From a bacterium (GTDB lineage Bacteria; Actinomycetota; Aquicultoria; Aquicultorales; Aquicultoraceae): a stretch of DNA of 37,976 nucleotides. The notes beneath the pieces were generated by a model that did no database searches, had not been told where the DNA came from, and worked only from the letters and a program-made list of their open reading frames with translations. The position numbers and the translations under genes are program-made. Positions within the stretch are counted from its first letter, which is position 1. Every line of letters starts with the position of its first letter. This document shows positions 1,838 to 14,359 of this stretch, in pieces. Where the stretch lies: assembly GCA_902810715.1 (NCBI GenBank), contig CADDYS010000010.1, positions 1 to 37,976 on the forward strand, read 5' to 3'.

Positions 1838-2746
1838 CTAACTCGATGCGTAATAGAATAAACTCCAGCCTGAGGGGTCGGTTACATAGATGCTTGCCCG
1901 GTAGAGGCTGTTTTCAACCCCGCCAAATCCCCACCGTATGACAACGACCCAGCAGCCCTGCTTGTTAAACTTTGCTTTCTCCATGTACACGGGGGCGGCT
2001 GATCTTTTTGTCTGGTCCAGAAGCGAGTTTATTGGGCTGCGCATCAGCTCGCCGTTGGTGCCCGTCTTGCTACTTATCCTCTCGATCAGGGTGTCCGTGA
2101 TCTGGCCGCGCAAATTTTTTGCATCGTTTACGGTAAGAAGGTTTTCCGTTCTCTTCTTCACATCGGCAAGCAGCCTATCTGCTGCTTTTGCATCGTAGTT
2201 TTTCTGCGAAGCAATTACCTCCGGCCAGGGATCGATTTTTTTTGCCGATGGTTTCGCTACATTTAAATCCGCCTGTCCTGCGGCAGGTGCGCTTTGTGAA
2301 GGAGACTCAGCTCTTTGTGCTTCAGGGCCGCTGTATCCCTTACCAGAAGGCACGCCTTTTTCAGCCGGGATTTGCCTTACCCCAGCGCTTTTATCGGGCG
2401 CGCTTAGATCGATCTGCGAGAGCAGCGCAACCAGCGCTATAGCTGCAACTGCACCTGCCGCAATCAGATAGCGCACGCGAGGCAATAGCAGCATGCGTCT
2501 TTTCTGGGCCGGCTTATCTATCTCATCATGAGCGATTCCCCGAAGAGCGTGCGAGACATCGGCAGGCACTTCAAGCTCACCGAGGCTTCGAACCATCTTT
2601 ACGGCGCTCTTCATTTTAGTTAGTTTTTCTCCGCAGTGGGGGCAATCTCGAAGATGCGAGTCGATCTGCATCTTTTCATCTGCTCCGAGTTCATTATCAA
2701 TATATGCGCTTAGTAAATCGTTGATATCTTTACAGTTCATAACCAT
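1838..2746 (-). CDS. Membrane anti-sigma factor with zinc-finger (ZAS) domain
   Basis: A 302-residue protein. The N-terminus carries C5 and H31-x3-C35-x2-C38, the zinc-binding anti-sigma signature. One transmembrane helix follows a basic stretch (about residues 92-110, after KRRMLLLPR). A proline/alanine-rich linker (about 120-165) leads to an extracytoplasmic domain with no family I recognise. The gene lies 16 bp after the ECF sigma gene, so the pair is co-transcribed. The role is to hold the partner sigma at the membrane until a signal releases it. The start could be the ATG at 2746 or the ATG two codons later; AGGTAG lies upstream of both. Confidence 0.88.
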   Translation of the reverse strand: MVMNCKDINDLLSAYIDNELGADEKMQIDSHLRDCPHCGEKLTKMKSAVKMVRSLGELEVPADVSHALRGIAHDEIDKPAQKRRMLLLPRVRYLIAAGAVAAIALVALLSQIDLSAPDKSAGVRQIPAEKGVPSGKGYSGPEAQRAESPSQSAPAAGQADLNVAKPSAKKIDPWPEVIASQKNYDAKAADRLLADVKKRTENLLTVNDAKNLRGQITDTLIERISSKTGTNGELMRSPINSLLDQTKRSAAPVYMEKAKFNKQGCWVVVIRWGFGGVENSLYRASIYVTDPSGWSLFYYASS

Positions 2747-2762
2747 CTACCTATTTAGACGT

Positions 2763-3332
2763 TTATTTTTCCAAACCGTTCCCATAGGGGGCAAGTTTCT
2801 CGGCCAGCTTTAACCTGGCTCGGGCCAGGCGAGACTTAACGGTTCCGATAGGCGAGCCGGTTATATCGACTATTTCATCATAGCTATAGCCGTAAAGGTC
2901 GTGAAGTATAACTATAATGCGCTGATCCTTTGACAGTGTCAGGATAGCCGCCTGAACCAACCCCTGTATTTCTTTTTGCTCACATACCTGACCGGGAAGC
3001 ATCCCACCATCGGGCAATATCGCCTCATCGATATCGGTTATCTCAACCCGGTGTGATTCCTTTTTAAGCCAATCTTTGCTGTAATTTACTGCTAGCCGGT
3101 ATAGCCAAGTTGAAAAGGCGGACTCTTCCCTAAAGCTGGCTAATTTTTTATGCAGGTGGATAAATATCTCCTGCGTTAGACCCGCGGCATCCGTGTTGTT
3201 ACCAGTCATGCGATATGCAAGGTTATAGACAAATTTTTCGTATCGCTCTACGAGATCATCAAAGGCACGCTTATCCCCGGTAAGGTAACTCCTTATTGTA
3301 GATATGTCCAGGTCGGCTTTGCTAATTACCAT
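2763..3332 (-). CDS. ECF RNA polymerase sigma factor (SigE/RpoE-like)
   Basis: A 189-residue protein. Sigma region 2 spans about residues 25-95 (core-binding TQEIFIHLHKKL followed by the -10-reading FSTWLYRLAVNYSKDWL). Region 4 spans about 132-182, with the helix-turn-helix YSYDEIVDITGSPIGTVKSR. Region 3 is absent, as usual for the ECF class. It directs core polymerase to stress promoters and is paired with the zinc-finger anti-sigma factor immediately downstream. The signal cannot be deduced from sequence. The start at 3332 is an ATG with a purine-rich GAGAGA upstream. Confidence 0.93.
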   Translation of the reverse strand: MVISKADLDISTIRSYLTGDKRAFDDLVERYEKFVYNLAYRMTGNNTDAAGLTQEIFIHLHKKLASFREESAFSTWLYRLAVNYSKDWLKKESHRVEITDIDEAILPDGGMLPGQVCEQKEIQGLVQAAILTLSKDQRIIVILHDLYGYSYDEIVDITGSPIGTVKSRLARARLKLAEKLAPYGNGLEK

Positions 3333-3531: not shown

Positions 3532-3975
3532 CTATATGAGTCTAAGCTGCGGATTGTCTTCTTCTATTTTGTTCCTGACAACGTCAACATACTTGCCCGC
3601 CAGGTCCGCTGCTTGAGTAGCCTCAGCTTCGGATACCAACGCAATATCGTAAACAACCTTATTTCGCTTAGCTCTCATTCTATCGTAGGTTGTTATAATA
3701 TCCGCAAATTTCTCACCTAAAACAAATCCTGAAAACTCAACTAACGTTTTGTGATGACCTAACCCAGTCCTCGGTCTGCATCCCCTTGAGAGCATCAAGG
3801 CGAGTGAGGCTTTAAGCATGGCCTCATAGGCCAATATGAAGGAAGAATCGGTGTCTGTATCGATAACTTTCTTGCTTGCCTCTAAGGATTTATAAGCTTT
3901 GTGAATTGTTAGTTCAATCTGCCTATAATTTACAGCTTGTTTCTTTATTAAGCTAAAATCAAATTCTTTGGCCAT
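3532..3975 (-). CDS. HEPN-domain protein (putative toxin of HEPN/MNT pair)
   Basis: A 147-residue, all-helical protein. RPRTGLGHHKTLVEF (about 67-81) and DRMRAKRNKVVYD (98-110) are typical of the HEPN family that pairs with minimal nucleotidyltransferases. HEPN toxins are RNases with an R-x4-6-H site. Here the arginine is R104, but the expected histidine position holds Y109, so either this branch uses a different chemistry or catalysis is lost. Its start overlaps the MNT gene by 17 bp, so the two are coupled. The region is AT-rich compared with its neighbours and lies between 52-bp direct repeats, which suggests acquisition by transfer. Confidence 0.8.
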   Translation of the reverse strand: MAKEFDFSLIKKQAVNYRQIELTIHKAYKSLEASKKVIDTDTDSSFILAYEAMLKASLALMLSRGCRPRTGLGHHKTLVEFSGFVLGEKFADIITTYDRMRAKRNKVVYDIALVSEAEATQAADLAGKYVDVVRNKIEEDNPQLRLI

Positions 3976-4522
3976 TTTTGATTAATTCAATTTTCTCATT
4001 TTTAATTATGTCTTCGATATAGGGGTTGTTTTCTTTTTTCTTCTTTAAAAATTCTTTTTTGCTAAATAAATCGAAGCTAACTTCTCTGCCCAATATATCC
4101 TCTGCTTTACGTGCGGCTTTACTTAGAGCATTATAATCGACATTGCCAATTATAAAAAGATCGATATCGCTTCTGGCATCCATCTCCCCCTTGGCAAGAG
4201 AGCCATAAACAAAAGCCTCCTGAATTCCTTTAAGATCGGCAAGAATATCTTTTAAAATCCGGGCAATTCCGAAAGATTTAATAGCTAGACCTTTGAGTTC
4301 GGCGTAAGTTGGGCTCTCTTTGTTTACCGAGTAAAACTTTTGCGTCCCTCTTTTTTCTGAAATTACAATACCTTCTTGCTCAAGTTTTCTTAGCGCCTTG
4401 AGAGCTCCCATCGGGGAAGAACCGATTAATCTGGCAATTTCCCTTATATAATATGCCTTACCTTCGTTAAGAATGAGCAAGGTCAGAATATTCTGTTTTG
4501 TCTTACTGATTAAATTAACCAT
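3959..4522 (-). CDS. Winged-helix + MNT nucleotidyltransferase protein (putative antitoxin)
   Basis: A 187-residue protein. Residues 5-70 form a winged helix (EIARLIGSSPMGALKALRKL and a KRGTQKFY wing). Residues 95-160 form a minimal nucleotidyltransferase domain with GSLAKGEMDARSDIDL (107-122; D119 and D121 bind metal) and a third acidic residue near D151. MNT antitoxins neutralise HEPN partners, in some systems by AMPylating them. The fused DNA-binding domain is well placed to repress the operon through the palindromes just upstream (4530-4571). The ATG at 4522 has no Shine-Dalgarno sequence, and the predicted promoter starts transcription almost at the ATG, so the mRNA may be leaderless. 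Confidence 0.85.
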   Translation of the reverse strand: MVNLISKTKQNILTLLILNEGKAYYIREIARLIGSSPMGALKALRKLEQEGIVISEKRGTQKFYSVNKESPTYAELKGLAIKSFGIARILKDILADLKGIQEAFVYGSLAKGEMDARSDIDLFIIGNVDYNALSKAARKAEDILGREVSFDLFSKKEFLKKKKENNPYIEDIIKNEKIELIKNGQRI

Positions 4523-4640: not shown

Positions 4641-5327
4641 CTACAGATGAGCGATGATCTCAGAGCTTCTTTTCTTCATCTCCCAGCGGATTCGTCCCAG
4701 GGTGGTCCATTGCGAAGCGACAACGATAAGCACGATATCCTCGATAAGCGGTGATACAAGTACCGGGCCGTGTTCGTATTCAAGCATAGCAACCGTAAGG
4801 CCGCCCTGGTTCAGCTCGTAACCGATCTTATCAAGCGTGCCAAAGCCGGTCGCAACAACCGCGCTTACCATGTCCATATCAAACTCGATATTGGATGTAT
4901 AATCAATCGTAAAGCCGTCTCGCGTAACCAGGATTGCGGCGATAACTCCATCCAGGTCCGTAAACCGCTGAAGTATCTGCTGCAGGTTAACGATGTTAAG
5001 CGTCTCATTGCCGCTTAGCAGTTGCTCGACCTCTTCTTTTGTTACCAGCTCTTCTTCGATGCCTTCCGCCGCCTGCTCCAAGATGTTTTCTTCCACTACC
5101 GTCTCTTTTAGCGCAGGATTCTCCCCCGCGCTTTCTAAATTACTTGACTCTTTAATTTTCTCAGCCAGGGCCTCGATAATATTTTTCCTGATTTCCGCTT
5201 CACTTGCTTGATTCTCGGAGTCTTTTGTAGCACTTGCTTTCTTCTTTCTCTTGTTGTCTGAGGTCTCCTCAGGCTCGTTGCCTTTTAGAAATACGGATAT
5301 TAACTCAGCAAAGTCTCGCTCATCCAA
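4641..5327 (-). CDS. Roadblock/LC7 (MglB-like) domain protein with acidic N-terminal extension
   Basis: A 228-residue protein. Residues 1-105 are charged and low in complexity (many Glu, Lys and Ala), probably disordered. Residues 110-220 match the Roadblock/LC7 fold: a helix (LQQILQRFTDLDGVIAAILV), then RDGFTIDY, then alternating strands and helices. In bacteria this fold forms dimers that regulate Ras-like GTPases such as MglA. No GTPase gene lies beside it here. The start has AGGAGG (5332-5337) and a candidate promoter at 5376-5404. It follows the KaiC-like/membrane/winged-helix genes on the same strand with a 117-bp gap, and may serve the same pathway. Confidence 0.85.
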   Translation of the reverse strand: MDERDFAELISVFLKGNEPEETSDNKRKKKASATKDSENQASEAEIRKNIIEALAEKIKESSNLESAGENPALKETVVEENILEQAAEGIEEELVTKEEVEQLLSGNETLNIVNLQQILQRFTDLDGVIAAILVTRDGFTIDYTSNIEFDMDMVSAVVATGFGTLDKIGYELNQGGLTVAMLEYEHGPVLVSPLIEDIVLIVVASQWTTLGRIRWEMKKRSSEIIAHL

Positions 5328-5375
5328 GTTGAACCTCCTATGGGACGGGGCATTTAGGACATTAAGTATGTCATT

Positions 5376-5404
5376 AGTTTACAGGCATTCTACTTGGTTG
5401 CCAA
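5376..5404 (-). promoter_or_regulatory. Candidate promoter of the Roadblock gene
   Basis: On the minus strand, TTGGCA (5404-5399) and TAAACT (5381-5376) are separated by 17 bp, giving a start about 42 bp before the AGGAGG-led ATG. GACAT-TAAGT-ATGTC (5358-5372) would form a small hairpin in the leader. The match quality is moderate. Confidence 0.45.
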
Positions 5405-5444
5405 GACCTGACAATTAGTCTAAGTAAATTGGGATTTTGTTAAC

Positions 5445-5828
5445 TTATGAGGACTCTTTAAGCATGCGGCGGAGCTCATCCATGAGGTCGCGTTTCTCAA
5501 GGCTTAACGCAATCAGATCATTTAGAATGCAGGTGTTCTCCGTGCTGGGTTCGTATGCGTAGATCGAGGAGATACCGCTATTCTCAGAGATCACCTTTAA
5601 GACACCGGCTGCCACCAACTCTTCTGCTTCTCTTAGTACTTGCTCGGACCTTCGCCCGATTATATTTGCAAGGCCCTTGGCGGTATGTATAGAAAAGGGG
5701 TTGGCTTGGTAGAAGCAAATCAAGTCCCACTTAATCGGAGATTCAAGAATCTCCAGAACCAGCACTCTTGTTTTGCTATTTAATCCTTTTAACAGTTTGG
5801 ATACTTTCTTATTTATCGTTTTACTCAT
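5445..5828 (-). CDS. Winged-helix DNA-binding protein of unknown target
   Basis: About 127 residues from the ATG at 5828. The central part, TAKGLANIIGRRSEQVLREAE followed by ELVAAGVLKVI, has the helix-turn-helix and wing spacing of archaeal-type winged-helix regulators; the C-terminus is a charged helix. The ATG overlaps the stop of the membrane gene upstream (ATGAGTAA). In-frame GTG (5840) and TTG (5843) codons with AGAGGA nearby are possible alternative starts. It is the fourth gene of the KaiC-like cluster, so it may be the transcriptional output of that module; this is inference from position only. Confidence 0.65.
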   Translation of the reverse strand: MSKTINKKVSKLLKGLNSKTRVLVLEILESPIKWDLICFYQANPFSIHTAKGLANIIGRRSEQVLREAEELVAAGVLKVISENSGISSIYAYEPSTENTCILNDLIALSLEKRDLMDELRRMLKESS

Positions 5829-6240
5829 CGGCGACTTCACCAAGATCCTCTTGATTATCAGACAATTCTTGGAATAGCCGATACTGCCTGACGAGGCCGA
5901 TCAGCACCAAGATTAAGAACAAAAGCTCGGCAAGCAGATGTATATTCTTCAGTACTAGTATTATCGGCTCCCAAACTTGCATGCTAAATTTACCGTGCTT
6001 TGCAAGCAAGTCCAGGTTAAAGGTGGCTGAAACCACCGGTCGCGTAACTTTGTACTCCAGCAAAAAATTATGAACGGTGAGCACTATAAAAGACGTCGCA
6101 TAAACCGGTACGCTTGGCAAAATCCATCGCCAGCTCTCTGCAAGATCGCCCTCAACCAAAAGCCAGGTTTTACGTGCGATGAGAGCAGCCATAAGCCCTA
6201 TGATTGTGACTATAATGGCTATTACATCAACCGATGTCAC
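5821..6240 (-). CDS. Small integral membrane protein, paralogue of its upstream neighbour
   Basis: A 139-residue protein with a GTG start (6240) directly abutting the preceding stop and led by GAGGTG at 5-bp spacing. Hydrophobic segments lie at about residues 5-22, 38-58 and 97-117. It shares with the 103-residue protein upstream the pattern G-(N/D)-L-A-x-S-W after the first helix and G-L-x-R-Q-Y after the last, so the pair arose by duplication. The C-terminal tail is acidic and cytoplasmic by charge. I do not recognise a named family. Overlap with the next gene indicates tight co-translation. Confidence 0.7.
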   Translation of the reverse strand: MTSVDVIAIIVTIIGLMAALIARKTWLLVEGDLAESWRWILPSVPVYATSFIVLTVHNFLLEYKVTRPVVSATFNLDLLAKHGKFSMQVWEPIILVLKNIHLLAELLFLILVLIGLVRQYRLFQELSDNQEDLGEVADE

Positions 6241-6552
6241 CTAAACACCTCGTCCGGTAAGGCCCTTCAATATCTGGTACTGACGTAACAAGCCAAAGAA
6301 AGCAAGTATGACGAAGATAAAGTTGGCTGTATTTCCAAGAAGGTGCATGCTTATACCGGCAATAGAGGTGATGCCGAGCTCGTAAAGGAGCATGAGCAGT
6401 ATCGCCAATGCAAGCACTTGAAAAGCGATAAATGAGTATGCCCAGCTTAGAGCTAAGTTCCCGGCTACCTTTCTCATGATGCCATAAGAAATAAAGGCTG
6501 CCAGACATGCCAGAAAGAAGTTAATTATTTCCACTATAGCTACTAAACTCAT
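6241..6552 (-). CDS. Small integral membrane protein next to KaiC-like ATPase
   Basis: A 103-residue protein with three predicted membrane helices (about residues 5-24, 36-58 and 68-88) and a short basic tail containing GLLRQYQILKGL. The ATG at 6552 has AGG eight bases upstream, inside the end of the ATPase gene; a TTG three bases earlier is less likely. It lies five bases after the stop of the KaiC-like gene. It is paralogous to the next gene (shared GNLALSW and RQY motifs). The two may form a heteromeric membrane partner of the ATPase. Function is unknown. Confidence 0.7.
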   Translation of the reverse strand: MSLVAIVEIINFFLACLAAFISYGIMRKVAGNLALSWAYSFIAFQVLALAILLMLLYELGITSIAGISMHLLGNTANFIFVILAFFGLLRQYQILKGLTGRGV

Positions 6553-6557
6553 CAAAG

Positions 6558-7334
6558 CTACCTTTTCTTGCGTATTAACCCTTCCTCAAGAAGGGTTTTG
6601 CCGCTTATCAGACGCGAGGGGAATCCGGTTAGGATTCCTTGGTGTCCTGCAAACTTGGTATCAATCTTTATGCCTTTTCCTGTAATTTTATATTTTCTAA
6701 TATCTTTAGCATGCTTGCTGCCTCTGGCTTTAAGTATAGTAAGGGCGGTCTCAAGCTCGCTTTCAATCTCGACGTATTTTAGGAAGACAATGTTATCAAC
6801 GACAAAACCCAAGCTTGCCTCAATCGCTCCATCATTGCCAAAGAATAAGGGGATTTCGCTGGTTAGTATAGTGGTAAGCCCCAGTCTCTTAAGCCCGTTG
6901 ATGAGACTGTTAAACACCTGCCTTAGCTCCTGGTGATCGGTTGTTAGCTGCTCCATCAAAGTTACGGAGTCGATTACTATTCTTTTGGCATCGAATTCGG
7001 CGACCAGGCGATCAATAAAGCCGTTCTCTTTTTCAAGCTCGCTTTTAAGCACGGCCGGTGATGTAAAGATTACCTTGATCTTACCCTCAGCCTCGTACTT
7101 TTTAAGGTCCCAGCCGAAATTCATCGCATCCCTGTAGATGATTTCAGGGAACTCTTCAAAAGTAATAAAGATTCCCGGCTCGTTGTATACAGTGACCCCG
7201 TTATATATAAACTGCACGCCAAAGGTGGTTTTTCCGGTTCCCGGTGGACCGGAGATTACGGTTGAACTTCTCTCGTAGAGGCCTCCATCAAGTAGTTCAT
7301 CTAATCCGGGAATCCCGCTTAATATCTTTTTCAC
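6558..7334 (-). CDS. KaiC-like/RecA-superfamily signalling ATPase (single KaiC domain)
   Basis: About 258 residues. GIPGLDELLDGG is the family's N-terminal signature. Walker A is GPPGTGKTT, the tandem catalytic glutamates are in ITFEEFPE, and Walker B is RIVIDSVTLM. The C-terminal part has the KaiC pattern VDNIVFLKYVE. One KaiC domain rather than two separates it from the circadian KaiC; such proteins are common in archaea and in some bacteria as signal-responsive ATPases. The GTG at 7334 has GGAGG at 5 bp. The ATG at 7346 lacks a ribosome-binding site and would add four residues. It heads a tight minus-strand operon with two membrane proteins and a winged-helix protein. Confidence 0.85.
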   Translation of the reverse strand: MKKILSGIPGLDELLDGGLYERSSTVISGPPGTGKTTFGVQFIYNGVTVYNEPGIFITFEEFPEIIYRDAMNFGWDLKKYEAEGKIKVIFTSPAVLKSELEKENGFIDRLVAEFDAKRIVIDSVTLMEQLTTDHQELRQVFNSLINGLKRLGLTTILTSEIPLFFGNDGAIEASLGFVVDNIVFLKYVEIESELETALTILKARGSKHAKDIRKYKITGKGIKIDTKFAGHQGILTGFPSRLISGKTLLEEGLIRKKR

Positions 7335-7377
7335 AATAGCCTCCATAACATTACAATCTTATATACAATCCCTGTCG

Positions 7378-7506: not shown

Positions 7507-7695
7507 TTAATCTTCTTCTATCTCCAGTATTGCCTCCATTGCACAGTCTTCCATGCAGGTTGCGCAGCCGTCGCAATCGTCCTCGTTGGCGACCTTGGCG
7601 ATATCGTCAATAAGCTCAAGTACGCCGTTTGGGCAGCTATCTATACATATTCCGCAACCTGTGCATTCATCCTCGTTGATTAGGGGTCTGGGCAT
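7507..7695 (-). CDS. 2[4Fe-4S] ferredoxin
   Basis: A 62-residue protein. Two cysteine sets are complete: C11-x2-C14-x2-C17-x3-C21-P and C41-x2-C44-x2-C47-x3-C51. This is the clostridial-type 8Fe-8S low-potential electron carrier. The acidic composition (many Asp and Glu) is usual for the class. AGGAGG lies seven bases before the ATG. It stands alone between the KaiC-like operon and the divergent dnaK operon. It could supply reduced ferredoxin to the Nfn-type complex and the CoA-dehydratase activase encoded further along. Confidence 0.95.
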   Translation of the reverse strand: MPRPLINEDECTGCGICIDSCPNGVLELIDDIAKVANEDDCDGCATCMEDCAMEAILEIEED

Positions 7696-7912: not shown

Positions 7913-9751
7913 ATGGCTAAAGCTCTAGGGGTTGACCTAGGAACAACCAACTCGTGCATGGCTATTCTTGAAGTTGGCGAACCAAAAGTCATCGCCAACG
8001 CCGAGGGCGGCAGGGTTACCCCATCGGTTGTGGCATTTTCTAAAACCGGTGAGGTGCTCGTCGGGGAGGTTGCAAAGCGCCAGGCGATCACCAACCCGGA
8101 CCGCACTATTAAGTCGGTAAAGCGTCATATGGGCAGCGACTGGAAGGTTGATATTGATAGCAAGAATTATACGCCGCAGCAGATCTCGGCCTTTATCCTG
8201 CAGAAGCTAAAAAGGGATGCCGAGGCCTATCTCGGTGAAAAAATCACCCAGGCGGTAATTACCGTTCCGGCGTATTTTGAGGACGCCCAGCGCCAGGCAA
8301 CAAAGGATGCGGGCACAATTGCAGGCCTTGAGGTTTTGCGAATCATCAACGAGCCGACCGCAGCCGCTTTGGCTTACGGCCTTGATAAAGAGCACGACCA
8401 GACGATTCTGGTCTTTGACTTAGGCGGCGGTACGTTTGATGTCTCCATCCTGGATATTGGAGACGGCGTTTTTGAGGTTCGCGCAACTGCGGGTGATAAC
8501 CACCTTGGCGGCGACGATTGGGATCAGAAGGTAATCGACTGGATGGCCGATGACTTCAAGGCCAAAAACGGGATTGATCTCAGGGCGGATAAAATGGCGA
8601 TGCAGCGGCTAAAAGAGGCGGCTGAGAAGGCAAAGATGGAGCTCTCAACGACGCTTACAACCAATATCAACCTGCCGTTTATCACGGCGGACGCCGAAGG
8701 CCCGAAGCATCTGGATATGACGCTTTCTCGTTCAGAGTTTGAGAGGATGACAGCAAATCTACTAGAGAGATGCACGAGGCCAGTTGAGCAGACGATGAAA
8801 GACGCAGGTGTCTCATCATCTGATATCGATCACGTCATCTTAGTCGGTGGCTCGACCAGGATGCCTGCGGTACAAGAGATGGTCAAAAAGATTACCGGCA
8901 AAGAGCCACACAAGGGTGTCAACCCAGATGAGGTAGTCGCCGTTGGTGCTGCGATTCAAGCTGGTGTCTTGAAGGGAGAGGTAAAAGACATCCTGCTTCT
9001 CGATGTTACTCCGCTCTCGCTTGGTATCGAGACCCTGGGCGGAGTTTTTACCAAGATGATCGAGAGAAACACCACCATCCCGACGAAGAAGAGCGAGCTA
9101 TTTACCACGGCGGCCGATGGGCAGACATCTGTTGAAATACACGTGCTGCAAGGCGAGCGCGAGATGGCGGCTTACAATAAAACTCTGGGTCGCTTCCATT
9201 TGGTAGATATTCCGCCGGCCCCACGAGGTATACCACAGATCGAGGTAACCTTTGATATTGATGCCAACGGCATCGTAAATGTATCCGCTAAGGATACGGG
9301 TACCGGAAAAGAGCAGAGGATAACTGTTACCGGTGCGACCGCGCTTGGCAAAGACGAGATCGACCGGATGGTAAAAGAATCCGAGTCTCACGCGGAAGAA
9401 GACCGCAAAAGACGCGAGGAGGTCGAGGTTAGAAACAACGCCGATAACCTCGCATACACGACCGAGCGCACACTAAAGGATGTTGGGGACAAACTTACCC
9501 CGACCGACAAAGAGGCGATTGAAAAAGCTATCGCCGAGGTCAAAGACGCGCTTAAAGGATCTGATATCGAGAGGATTAAGAGAGCTCATGAGGAGCTTCT
9601 CCAGCAGTCGTATAAGATCGGCCAGGCGGTTTACTCGCAGCAGGCATCAAGCGCATCAGCGGACGGTGATGCGACCTCTGCTAACGGACAGGGCGGCGAC
9701 GTTGTCGATGCCGACTACGAAGTGGTAAACGAAGAGGGCGAGAATAAATAG
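7913..9751 (+). CDS. dnaK: Chaperone protein DnaK (Hsp70)
   Basis: A 612-residue protein, full length for actinobacterial DnaK. The ATPase domain shows [13 protein letters not shown] (phosphate 1), [12 protein letters not shown] (connect 1) and [10 protein letters not shown] (phosphate 2). The substrate-binding domain begins near [11 protein letters not shown] (about 363) and a helical lid follows. The C-terminal tail ends [14 protein letters not shown] in place of the classical EEVKD. It binds exposed hydrophobic peptides in an ATP cycle driven by DnaJ and GrpE, both encoded next. AAGGAG lies before the ATG. It is first in dnaK-grpE-dnaJ-hspR-clpB, the actinobacterial order. Confidence 0.98.
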
Positions 9752-9794
9752 GAAGAATACGTCACTTCTTTCCGGAGACTTTGAGGTGATCTCG

Positions 9795-10301
9795 TTGGCA
9801 AAAGATAAAATTACAGAGCAAGAGGATTACAAGAGGCTTCATGACGAGCTTAAAGATAGGCTTGATAAAAAAGAGACCGAGGCGGCGGAGTACCTGGATA
9901 CCTTGAAAAGGGTTCAGGCGGAGATGGAAAATTTCCGCAAGCGAATGATGAAAGAGCAGGAGCAAATAATCCAGTACGCCGCCCAGACGGTTATCCTTGA
10001 GCTTCTGCCGGTAATCGATAACCTGGAGCGGGCGCTTGATACGGCCAAAGCCGAGAGCGAAGGGACAAAACTCCTCGAGGGGGTTGAGCTAATCTACTCG
10101 CAACTTAAAGGTATTCTTGAGAGGGAGTGCGTCGAGGTGGTCGATCCAGTAGGTGAGCCGTTTGATCCCCAGCATCATGAGGCCGTTATGCAGATCGAAA
10201 GCGACGGACATGAGGAGAACACTGTGGTGGAGGTAATGCAAAAGGGATATATCCTAAAGGGCAGGCTCCTCCGCCCGGCGACGGTGATTGTTGCGAAGTA
10301 A
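9795..10301 (+). CDS. grpE: Nucleotide exchange factor GrpE
   Basis: About 168 residues. A long N-terminal coiled coil (about residues 5-60, with RVQAEMENFRKRM) is followed by the four-helix segment LELLPVIDNLERAL and a C-terminal beta domain with VDPVGEPFDPQHHEAV and KGYILKGRLLRPATVIVAK, all diagnostic. It releases ADP from DnaK. I chose the TTG at 9795 because GAGGTGAT, an eight-base match to the anti-Shine-Dalgarno, lies four bases before it. The GTG at 9786 is a possible alternative and lies within that ribosome-binding site. The gene is separated from dnaJ by a 140-bp gap filled by a dispersed repeat. Confidence 0.95.
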   Translation: MAKDKITEQEDYKRLHDELKDRLDKKETEAAEYLDTLKRVQAEMENFRKRMMKEQEQIIQYAAQTVILELLPVIDNLERALDTAKAESEGTKLLEGVELIYSQLKGILERECVEVVDPVGEPFDPQHHEAVMQIESDGHEENTVVEVMQKGYILKGRLLRPATVIVAK

Positions 10302-10315
10302 AGGGTCGAGAATGA

Positions 10316-10425
10316 GGGAAGGCGAAAAGGCCACAAAGCGAAAAGGTGAAAGACAATAATAAAATCCCCTCTTCGCCTTTTGGCGGACCCACAATCTAGA
10401 CCCAAGTATCAGTGGCCTTTTGGCC
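10316..10425. repeat. TCTAGACCCA repeat, copy 1 (inside the heat-shock operon)
   Basis: The left arm has units of the type GCGAAAAGG. After a short AT-rich spacer comes the right arm TTCGCCTTTTGGC, then GGACCCACAATCTAGACCCA (core 10395-10404), then a second right arm TGGCCTTTTGGCC. It lies between the co-directional genes grpE and dnaJ, so it is transcribed and should fold. Other copies are at 17344, 22155, 24180 and 26793. Confidence 0.85.
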
Positions 10426-10441
10426 GAACCAAGTGGTGATA

Positions 10442-11365
10442 ATGATGAATGCAAGCAGAACATATAAGGACTACTATGCGGCTCTTGGGGTTGGAAGAAA
10501 CGCGACCCAAAAAGAGATAAAGGATGCTTACCGGAAGCTTGCGCGTAAATATCATCCAGATGCGAACAAGGGCGGCAAAGAGACAGGGGATAAATTCAAG
10601 GAAATTAGCGAGGCCTATGAGGTTTTAAAAGACCCGAAGAAGCGTAAAGAGTACGACGAGATGGGTCGCTTCTTTAGCGGGCAAGGCGCAGGAGGTTTCG
10701 GCGGCCGGGGACCCTCGGGATACGGAGGAGATTTTTCCGGCTTTACCGGCAACTTTTCCTTTGGGGGTATCGGGGATCTCTTTGATCTACTCGGCTCCGA
10801 TATGGGAAGAAGGGCGGGTGCGCGAGTAGCAAAGGGAGAGGATATTGTCTACAATGTGCACCTGACCTTTGACGAGGCCCTTAAAGGGAAAACCGTACAG
10901 TTTTTACTCAACAAAAAGACCGAGACGGTAAAGATACCGCCGGGAGTCGCCGATGGTAGCAAGCTTAAATTTAAGGGAAGGGGCAGCCCCGGCCAAAATG
11001 GCGGGCCTGCGGGGGACCTTTATGTGGTGACGAGACTGGCCCCCCACCCGTTTTTCAAGCGCAGAGGAAGCGACATTTTGCTAAACGTTCCGGTAACATT
11101 TACCGAAGCGGCGCTCGGTACAAGCATAGAGATTCCCACAATCAATGGGAGCGTTTCTTTAAAAATTCCGGCCGGGACGCAGGACGGCCAGACTTTTAGA
11201 CTACGAGGCAAAGGCGTCCCGAAATTAAAAGGTACGGGGCAAGGCGATATGCTTGCCACCGTTTACATCGAGGTTCCGAAAAACCTTTCTCCCGACGAAA
11301 AAGAGCTTTTAATAAAGTTTGCCGATAGCCGAAACGACAACCCGAGGCGTATTTTTAAGAAGTAG
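10442..11365 (+). CDS. dnaJ: DnaJ-type co-chaperone lacking the zinc finger (CbpA-like)
   Basis: 308 residues from the ATG at 10442, or 307 from the adjacent ATG. The J domain occupies residues 8-70 with HPD at 38-40. A Gly/Phe-rich segment (about 78-115) follows, then the two C-terminal substrate-binding domains ([18 protein letters not shown], then [11 protein letters not shown]). No CxxCxGxG zinc repeats are present, so this is a type II J protein although it sits in the dnaK operon. It stimulates DnaK's ATPase and delivers substrates. An upstream in-frame GTG (10412) lies inside the dispersed repeat and is not a credible start; GGTGAT precedes the chosen ATG pair. Confidence 0.93.
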
Positions 11366-11382
11366 ATTTGGAGTGAACATAA

Positions 11383-11769
11383 GTGTACGACGAGCCGGTC
11401 TATATGATAAGCATCGCAGCAAAACTCGCAGGGATGCATCCTCAGACGCTTAGGATCTATGAGCGCAAGAAGCTCATCACGCCAAGGCGCACCCGGGGGT
11501 GCACGCGTCTTTACTCCCAGCGCGATGTCGACCGCTTGAAGTTAATACAGATGCTCACACAGGAATTGGGAGTAAATCTTGCCGGGGTTTGCAAGATATT
11601 TGAACTACAGGACGAAATTGAGCAGTTGCAATCCATTATGGGAGAGCTTGAGGAGCGGGTCATGAGCCTGCAGGAGAATTTAGATGAGGAGTTGGAGAAG
11701 GTTCAGAGAAACGCTCTCGTGCCGATGTCTCGCGGCCGCATAGTCTTACGTAAACCCAAAAAATCCTAG
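11383..11769 (+). CDS. hspR: Heat-shock repressor HspR (MerR family)
   Basis: A 128-residue protein. The MerR helix-turn-helix begins ISIAAKLAGMHPQTLRIYERK (about residues 9-29), followed by the wing RRTRGCTRLYSQRDV. A coiled-coil dimerisation helix with EIEQLQSIMGELEERV follows, and a basic tail ends it. HspR represses the dnaK operon and clpB through HAIR inverted repeats, with DnaK as co-repressor. The GTG start has GGAGTG eight bases upstream. The gene lies 17 bp after dnaJ and 13 bp before clpB, so it autoregulates its own operon. No convincing HAIR site is visible at the dnaK promoter. Confidence 0.93.
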   Translation: MYDEPVYMISIAAKLAGMHPQTLRIYERKKLITPRRTRGCTRLYSQRDVDRLKLIQMLTQELGVNLAGVCKIFELQDEIEQLQSIMGELEERVMSLQENLDEELEKVQRNALVPMSRGRIVLRKPKKS

Positions 11770-11782
11770 GGGTTGACATTAG

Positions 11783-14359
11783 ATGAGGTTAGATAAATTC
11801 ACGATAAAATCGCAAGAGGCTTTGGGCGAGGCCCAGAGGCTGGCTGAGTCCCAAGGCCACCAACAGGTTGAGTCGGAGCACCTGGTCTTGGCTTTGCTTG
11901 AGCAAAAGGACGGGGTTGTAATTCCGATACTGCAAAAGTTGGGTATTGACCCGGATACGGTCAAAAAACAGCTTAATGCGGAGCTTGCCAAAAGCCCGAA
12001 GGTCTCGGGGGCCACCGTGGCTTCATATATCGCCCCTGAGCTGAAAAAGGTTTTAGACAATGCGTTTGTTGAAGCCGAGAAACTAAAAGATGAATATGTA
12101 AGCACAGAGCATCTTTTAATCGCGATGCTGGCCAGTGAGTGCTCTGCCGCTAAAATAATGCGGTCTTTAGGCATAACCAAAGACGCGGTACTAAAAATGC
12201 TGGTTGATGTGCGGGGAAGCCAAAGGGTGACCGATCAGAACCCGGAGGAGAAATACCAGGCGATTGAGAAATACAGCCGGGACCTCACGCGCTTAGCACG
12301 CATCGGAAAGCTTGATCCGGTGATCGGGCGAGACGACGAGATTCGACGGGTCATCCAGGTGCTCTCACGCCGTACCAAAAACAACCCGGTTCTAATCGGC
12401 GATCCCGGCGTTGGCAAAACCGCAATTGCGGAGGGGTTAGCGCAAAGGATTATAAGCGGCGATGTTCCGGAGGGGCTAAAAGATAAGCGGGTAGTCGCGC
12501 TTGATTTGGGAGCGTTAATTGCCGGTGCAAAATACCGCGGCGAGTTTGAGGATCGCCTGAAGGCAGTCCTAAAAGAAGTGACATCGGCCGAGGGCGAGAT
12601 AATCCTTTTTATCGATGAGCTTCACACGTTGGTTGGTGCGGGTGCGGCCGAGGGTGCAGTAGATGCCGCAAACTTGCTTAAGCCGGCTTTGGCTAGAGGC
12701 GAGCTTCGCGCAATTGGCGCAACCACGCTCGATGAGTATCGCAAATATATCGAAAAAGACGCGGCCCTTGAGAGACGGTTTCAGCCAATACTTGTCGGCG
12801 AGCCTTCTGTTGAAGATACGATAGCGATCCTTCGCGGTCTTAAAGAGCGCTATGAAATACACCATGGCGTTCGCATGACCGACTCGGCACTTGTGGCGGC
12901 GGCGGTTCTATCCAACCGCTATATCGTGGATAGGTTCCTGCCGGACAAAGCCATCGACCTTGTTGATGAGGCGGCCTCGCACCTGCGCATAGAGATAGAC
13001 TCCGTGCCGACCGAGATAGACGAAGTTGAGCGAAGGATCAAGCAGCTTGAGATAGAGCGGCAGGCCTTTAAAAACGACAAAAGCAAGGCGGCTCTGGAGC
13101 GCCTTGCCAATATTGAAAAAGAGCTCGCCGATCTTAAAGAGAAGGTCTTTAATATGCGGGCCCACTGGGAAAACGAGAAAAGTGTAATTCAGGAGATTAG
13201 GGCCTTAAAAGAGAAGATCGAGCAGGCTAAGAACGACGCGACCAATGCGGAGAGATCGGGTGACTTGGCGCTTGCAGCAAAGCTTCGCTACGGCGATATC
13301 CTGGCCTTTGAGAAGGAGCTTGACGACAAAAACCAGCAGCTTCTTGAGCTACAAAAAGACACGAAGATGCTTAAAGAAGAGGTAGATGAGGAGGATATTG
13401 CTGAGGTTGTCTCCAAGTGGACGGGCGTTCCCGTATCAAATCTCATGGAGGGCGAGATTGAAAAACTTATCAGCATGGAAAATCGCCTGCATATGAGGGT
13501 TATCGGCCAGGATGAGGCGGTCTCGGCGGTCTCCAACGCGATACGCCGGGCGCGCGCCGGCCTGCAGGACCCAAACCGCCCCTTGGGCTCGTTTATCTTC
13601 CTGGGGCCAACCGGCGTTGGAAAAACCGAGCTGGCCAGGGCCTTAGCCGAGTTTCTCTTCGATGATGAACGGGCTATGATCCGAATAGATATGTCCGAAT
13701 ACATGGAGAAACACACAGTATCGAGACTAATCGGCGCTCCCCCGGGATACGTCGGCTATGATGAGGGCGGCCAGCTTACCGAAGCTGTACGAAGAAGGCC
13801 GTATTCGGTCATCCTTCTCGATGAGATAGAGAAGGCGCATACGGATGTCTTTAACGTGCTTTTGCAGATTCTAGATGACGGTCGGTTAACCGACGGCAAA
13901 GGACGCACGGTTGATTTTAAAAACACAATTATCATCATGACGTCTAACTTGGGGTCGCAATATATTCAGGAAGTGGTCGACCCGGATGAACTTAAACGGA
14001 AGATTGATGAAGTCACGAAGTTACACTTTAGACCCGAGTTTTTAAACCGGGTCGACGAGATAGTAATCTTTAATCGACTCAGCATGGAAGACATCGAGAA
14101 GATAGTCGATATCCAGGTCGCTCACTTGCAGAGGCGGGTTGCCGAACACGGCATAACTCTTGAGTTAACCGATGCCGCCAAAGAGCTTATCGCACTCGAA
14201 GGGTATGACCCGGTCTTCGGTGCACGTCCTTTGAAGCGAGTCATACAGAAGAAGTTGCAAGACGGCCTGGCGCTAAAAATACTTCAGGGTGAGATAAAAG
14301 ACGGCGATGGTGTAGTTGTCGATGCAAAAGACGGCAACATAACCTTTGGCACAAATTAA
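11783..14359 (+). CDS. clpB: ATP-dependent protein disaggregase ClpB
   Basis: An 858-residue protein, full length. Clp N-domain repeats span about 1-145. AAA-1 has Walker A GDPGVGKT (206-213) and Walker [13 protein letters not shown]. The long coiled-coil M domain spans about 400-520. AAA-2 has Walker A GPTGVGKT (608-615) and Walker [12 protein letters not shown]. The M domain and the absence of an IGF loop mark it as ClpB, not ClpA or ClpC. With DnaK-DnaJ-GrpE it dissolves aggregates. It follows hspR by 13 bp and ends the heat-shock operon; a hairpin (14361-14392) lies just after the stop. Confidence 0.98.

Follow-up and report, generated by a model that had tools for sequence, protein, structure and literature searches.

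Four tightly packed genes in the window (the whole 37,976-nucleotide stretch of DNA that was analysed) encode a KaiC-family ATPase, two paralogous membrane proteins, TM1 and TM2, and a winged-helix protein. They very probably constitute a functional unit, and gene context together with knowledge of the protein families gives roughly an even chance that the unit is a KaiC-based signalling operon, forming a relay from membrane to DNA. The source genome (G000) is an Actinomycetota MAG of 2.43 Mb in 153 contigs, 98% complete, to which the closest named loci are those of Candidatus Aquicultor; these Aquicultor relatives are uncultured and little known. Below, G-numbers designate the genomes of relatives, and families and genera are labelled by f- and g-numbers. 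The genes read leftwards in the order KaiC, TM1, TM2 and winged helix, followed after a gap of 117 bp by a gene for a Roadblock protein.

6558-7346, minus strand: KaiC-family ATPase, single-domain, CII-like, 262 aa (Pfam KaiC, 1.9e-59; solved KaiC chains, 9e-86; 10-sequence alignment)
6241-6555, minus strand: TM1, 104 aa, three predicted TM helices, no known family (no NCBIfam or Pfam match; alignment; hydropathy and charge positions)
5821-6240, minus strand: TM2, 139 aa, paralogue of TM1 (profile match and controls; model; no significant PDB fold match)
5445-5843, minus strand: winged-helix protein, 132 aa, ArsR/MarR-type fold, from a family that often adjoins KaiC (model, Foldseek, family alignment, neighbourhoods)
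5375-5405, minus strand: conserved promoter-like element 5' of the Roadblock gene (conserved upstream in the family genomes compared; consensus scan hit)
4641-5327, minus strand: Roadblock/LC7 protein, N-terminal segment conserved, linker variable, membership of the relay uncertain (Pfam Robl_LC7; alignment)

An earlier note on this DNA had described a strand-consistent cluster of five genes, the first four overlapping or lying within five bases of each other, and this description is accurate, all five open reading frames being on the minus strand and the gaps among the first four being 2, 0 and −23 bp. The unit is divergent from dnaK-grpE-dnaJ-merR-clpB (7913-14359). A gene for a 62-aa 2x[4Fe-4S] ferredoxin with two CxxCxxCxxxC motifs lies at 7507-7695 on the minus strand, 160 bp upstream of KaiC; it is present in G001 and G003-G010, was not detected in G002 and G011, and may be independent of the operon or a neighbour of it with a redox role.

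The four-gene unit within and outside the order

The earlier note had made its proposal depend on the genes being conserved together in relatives, and the four-gene unit does recur across the order. The neighbourhood search that it had suggested, for the membrane pair beside KaiC-like ATPases, located KaiC-TM1-TM2 in 10 of 12 genomes of the order, representing 6 genera; nine of these also have the winged helix, and the full order ending with Roadblock is found in eight of the 12 (G000, G002, G004, G006-G010). In G011, which belongs to a different family of the order, only the first four genes are present, the downstream genes differ, and a Roadblock homologue is on another contig; persistence of the unit despite the different downstream genes supports the relay reading. 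G005 retains KaiC-TM1-TM2 and the Roadblock gene without this winged helix, whereas G003 retains the winged helix and Roadblock beside dnaK but has no KaiC or TM1 and has TM2 as a pseudogene (tblastn 4e-6, with stops), a pattern consistent with loss as a unit. The winged helix and KaiC are therefore each dispensable. G001 was rejected as a case of loss, as the contig breaks off just past the ferredoxin gene, about 580 bp short of dnaK.

The proposal that the membrane pair was derived by duplication is supported by comparison of the TM1 and TM2 profiles (hhalign, 97.8%, E = 8.3e-13, score 74), as control comparisons, in which TM1 or TM2 was paired with a reversed profile or with YggT, gave noise-level scores of about 17 or less. 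Both proteins have LAxSW following helix 1 and GLxRQY where helix 3 ends. The latter, noted previously as a shared motif, occurs without deviation in the two proteins of the window and does not vary among relatives of TM2, but in relatives of TM1 it is loosened (GLLRNY, GLLRYY, GLLYQY, GLWYQF). The model of TM2 is of moderate quality (pLDDT 71.6, pTM 0.50) and predicts three long helices (residues 3-28, 43-61 and 91-138), a short helix (32-40) and two strands (71-77 and 82-90) forming a putative β hairpin between long helices 2 and 3. No Pfam or NCBIfam family scored above cut-off with TM1 or TM2, and a PDB fold search with the TM2 model gave nothing at E<=0.001, so that the possibility raised earlier, that the membrane proteins belong to a known unrelated system, found no support in these searches. 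Among 396 sampled genomes of the phylum, no relatives of TM1 or TM2 were found beyond the family of G000 and that of G011; weak TM matches in G091 and G249 were treated as spurious, being in short frames with no TM-like protein or KaiC alongside. TM1 and TM2 define two new membrane-protein families.

The identification of the fourth protein as a winged-helix protein is backed by an AlphaFold model (pLDDT 89.7), which Foldseek matches most closely to regulators of the ArsR and MarR types (probability ~1.00). The family is broad, with a member in 48 of 296 sampled Actinomycetota genomes, many of them away from KaiC. Paralogues in L112, L114, L116 and L118-L120 have a recurrent neighbourhood unrelated to KaiC, with genes for a DivIVA-like protein, one resembling YggT, a protein of 98-104 aa and, on contigs that extend far enough, a protein of 930-945 aa. 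As paralogues also adjoin unrelated genes, the family is not exclusive to KaiC.

Outside the order, the scan of the genomes' contigs recovered only close KaiCs. KaiC relatives away from dnaK have a 3-TM or 7-TM protein next and, often, a winged helix before. For the nearest KaiCs in the class (54-61% identity), the gene directly after KaiC encodes a 3-TM protein of 122 aa (L064, L068) or one with 7 TM helices (L065, L066). The winged helix is directly upstream of KaiC in f10 (L064, L068) and in a single locus of f7, L067, where the KaiC is more distant (42%) and is also followed by a multi-TM protein. A candidate homology of TM1 and TM2 to these 3-TM and 7-TM proteins was rejected, the scores being at the level of the reversed and unrelated controls. 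The order is reversed in f27, where KaiC comes first and about 30-40 bp separate it from the adjacent winged helix, and f29 has winged helix-KaiC with the two genes overlapping. In three Armatimonadota genomes, the only member of the winged-helix family is fused to the C-terminal side of a MerR domain, and this fusion is directly upstream of a longer KaiC-family protein. The earlier statement that no described bacterial system has this exact composition thus holds for the TM1/TM2 families only, as the KaiC-winged helix combination extends to several other families of actinobacteria and to Armatimonadota.

In f43, and for a second type of KaiC in f27, the genes after KaiC encode a receiver protein, a pair of 3-TM proteins (the first of about 100 aa, the second of 117-126 aa) and a PAS histidine kinase. 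The partners of these cousin KaiCs are signalling proteins, which lends support to the relay. Six such loci were read (L156-L160, L162), an example being L158:1255-5394 from another actinobacterial lineage. They resemble the window unit in having, near a KaiC relative, a pair of small 3-TM proteins of which the second is longer, but two-component proteins replace the winged helix and the TM proteins are not detectably homologous to TM1 or TM2; histidine kinase and receiver are absent from the window unit and present only in the cousin loci. In the KaiC tree, the KaiCs of the order form one clade (98/99), those with winged-helix partners fall in several separate clades and the receiver-type KaiCs are apart, but it should be recognized that the deep joins are unsure because of the midpoint root and several long branches.

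These neighbourhoods bear on an alternative in which KaiC, TM1 and TM2 form a membrane machine or transporter-like device, comparable with ArlH in the archaellum motor, and the winged helix is merely a local regulator. The presence of the three genes together in G005, the position of TM1 directly after KaiC wherever the unit is present, and the role of the KaiC-family protein ArlH as a motor component (PMC13286277) are consistent with such a device. However, the unit has no archaellum or pilus genes, TM1 and TM2 are small and have no significant fold match, and the KaiC-winged helix pairing recurs in KaiC clades that have no TM1 or TM2, so that this alternative appears unlikely.

The Roadblock gene and the surrounding region

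The nearby Roadblock protein reported earlier contains a Roadblock/LC7 domain (PF03259, E=1.3e-8), and comparison with solved structures gave matches to Robl_LC7 (1e-6) and MglB (0.024). Its gene is 92-199 bp downstream of the unit in the different genomes and is the next gene in G005 as well as in all eight family genomes that have the unit complete. The region 5' of the gene includes, across the compared genomes of the family, CTTGGCAA...TGCCTGTAAACTA, readable as TTGGCA, a 17-nt spacer and TAAACT, with an inverted repeat, GGCAA-N9-WTGCC, that overlaps the first hexamer. This conserved promoter-like element suggests that the gene is transcribed separately. In G005, where the winged helix is missing, the repeat has an altered second arm (TTGCT); being a single case, this is just a hint that the winged helix might bind there. 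A regular-expression scan of the window and the larger loci found no second full copy of the element, and no conserved element was found before KaiC.

That all five genes constitute a single relay of the MglB/CvnB type is distinctly unlikely. The constant position of the Roadblock gene next to the unit would accord with it, but synteny of the flanking genes is general in the family, the gene has its own promoter-like element, and it is retained in G003 without KaiC and TM1 and is unlinked in G011. The protein resembles components of MglA/MglB and of the Streptomyces conservons (CvnB) in its Roadblock domain and in a weak sequence match to CvnB5 and MglB, but differs in having no partner small GTPase that could be found and no reliable tie to KaiC. 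The absence of a Ras-like GTPase, remarked on previously for the locus, extends to the whole G000 genome as tested, the sole match being a weak one to PF00025 (Arf; 23.8 bits) inside a 720-aa ORF. The evidence does not support the Roadblock protein as an integral part of the system; its gene would be no more than an accessory or a target under common regulation. Of the archaeal-style signal relay envisaged in the earlier note, a KaiC-hub relay with a conserved four-gene unit stands as the best-supported reading, but not the membership of the Roadblock protein.

Further downstream, at 3532-4522 on the minus strand, a gene for a nucleotidyltransferase with an N-terminal HTH (Pfam NTP_transf_2) overlaps one for a 147-aa, HEPN-like-looking protein with no Pfam match; this toxin-antitoxin-like pair is located between the Roadblock and ECF sigma genes and is absent from this position in the relatives compared. 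The ECF sigma factor and a zf-HC2 anti-sigma-like protein are encoded at 1838-3332 (minus strand) and are near the Roadblock gene in several relatives also.

A further alternative is that the genes are neighbours without a common function, held together by general synteny around dnaK. The genes dnaK-grpE-dnaJ-merR-clpB are conserved alongside in the family loci that reach them and, as the whole region is syntenic within the family, conserved order there is by itself weak evidence. Overlapping or near-zero gene spacing, and the pairing of KaiC with a winged helix and with membrane proteins away from dnaK, in another phylum and with changed gene order, argue against this explanation and make it very unlikely.

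The KaiC ATPase

The ATPase matches PF06745 with E=1.9e-59 (201 bits, as compared with a cut-off of 26.6). Its Walker A motif (residues 33-41, GPPGTGKTT), Glu64-Glu65 and Walker B motif (122-128) are retained in an alignment of 10 homologues, in agreement with its earlier description as a single-domain KaiC ATPase with a catalytic Glu-Glu pair. The protein is one domain of 262 aa, with sequence similarity to each half of KaiC, rather than a two-domain (CI and CII) protein; after the core it has a CII-like segment (KFAGHQGILTGFPSR) that ends in a highly conserved basic C-terminal tail (LTGFPSR...TLLEEGLIRKKR). The positions of Ser431 and Thr432 are Gly-Phe in all ten homologues, which excludes clock-type phosphorylation at those sites. 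Thus, as judged from sequence, the ATPase site is intact and the clock phosphosites are missing. No match to KaiB (PF07689) was found in the 98%-complete G000 genome. According to PMC5520375, KaiCs of about 250 aa are devoid of the oscillator sites, and their bacterial carriers had no KaiB. G000 has a second KaiC gene (L036:9779-11116), present in most family members, which encodes a 445-aa protein with a KaiC domain and an unassigned C-terminal part containing several Cys.

The enzyme shares with the cyanobacterial KaiABC clock the KaiC fold, Walker motifs, catalytic Glu pair and CII-like C-terminal segment, but it has one domain, no equivalents of Ser431/Thr432 and no KaiB that could be found. 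A KaiC-type timekeeper or phospho-oscillator, suggested by the fold and the similarity to both KaiC halves, is for these reasons, and given the KaiB-free carriers of similar short KaiCs, so improbable that it can hardly be entertained.

A putative relay from membrane to DNA

The KaiC gene is stably linked to genes for putative input and output proteins, and the relay, if it exists, is probably one without a histidine kinase and without a clock. TM1 and TM2 may associate as a heteromer that serves as sensor or anchor in the membrane. The basic residues following helices 1 and 3 suggest an N-out, C-in topology, in which the extra hairpin of TM2 would be the outward part and the cytoplasmic tails (GLxRQY...) could touch the conserved basic C-terminal tail of KaiC. 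The state of the membrane would in this way be conveyed to a KaiC ring, setting its assembly or nucleotide state, and the ring would bind or release the winged-helix protein and so control transcription. A more specific version, which should be regarded as tentative and is rather doubtful, is a bacterial, non-two-component relay within one operon, in which the TM pair controls a KaiC ring that directly governs the winged-helix transcription factor, KaiC and the winged helix being an old, portable switch core combined with varied membrane modules, and the inverted repeat before the Roadblock gene being one operator.

KaiC ATPases have been proposed as archaeal signalling hubs (cited in PMC5847659), and in Haloferax a KaiC-like protein and a transcription factor are in one regulon (PMC13286277). 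As far as the archaeal hubs (Makarova, Galperin and Koonin 2017) are represented in PMC5847659 and PMC13286277, they resemble the present unit in having a KaiC-family ATPase, including a single-domain form, with putative input and output partners; the unit described here differs in being bacterial, in its TM1/TM2 paralogue pair, seen only in this order, and in its stand-alone winged-helix output. Our literature search found no paper on the KaiC-TM1-TM2-winged helix gene set. What is new is a bacterial version of the KaiC-hub idea, with new membrane families.

KaiC-like ATPases are widespread, with few known roles beyond the cyanobacterial clock and the archaellum. The compact operon, with relatives in which the membrane part varies and KaiC and the winged helix are constant, represents a small, testable hub system in bacteria.
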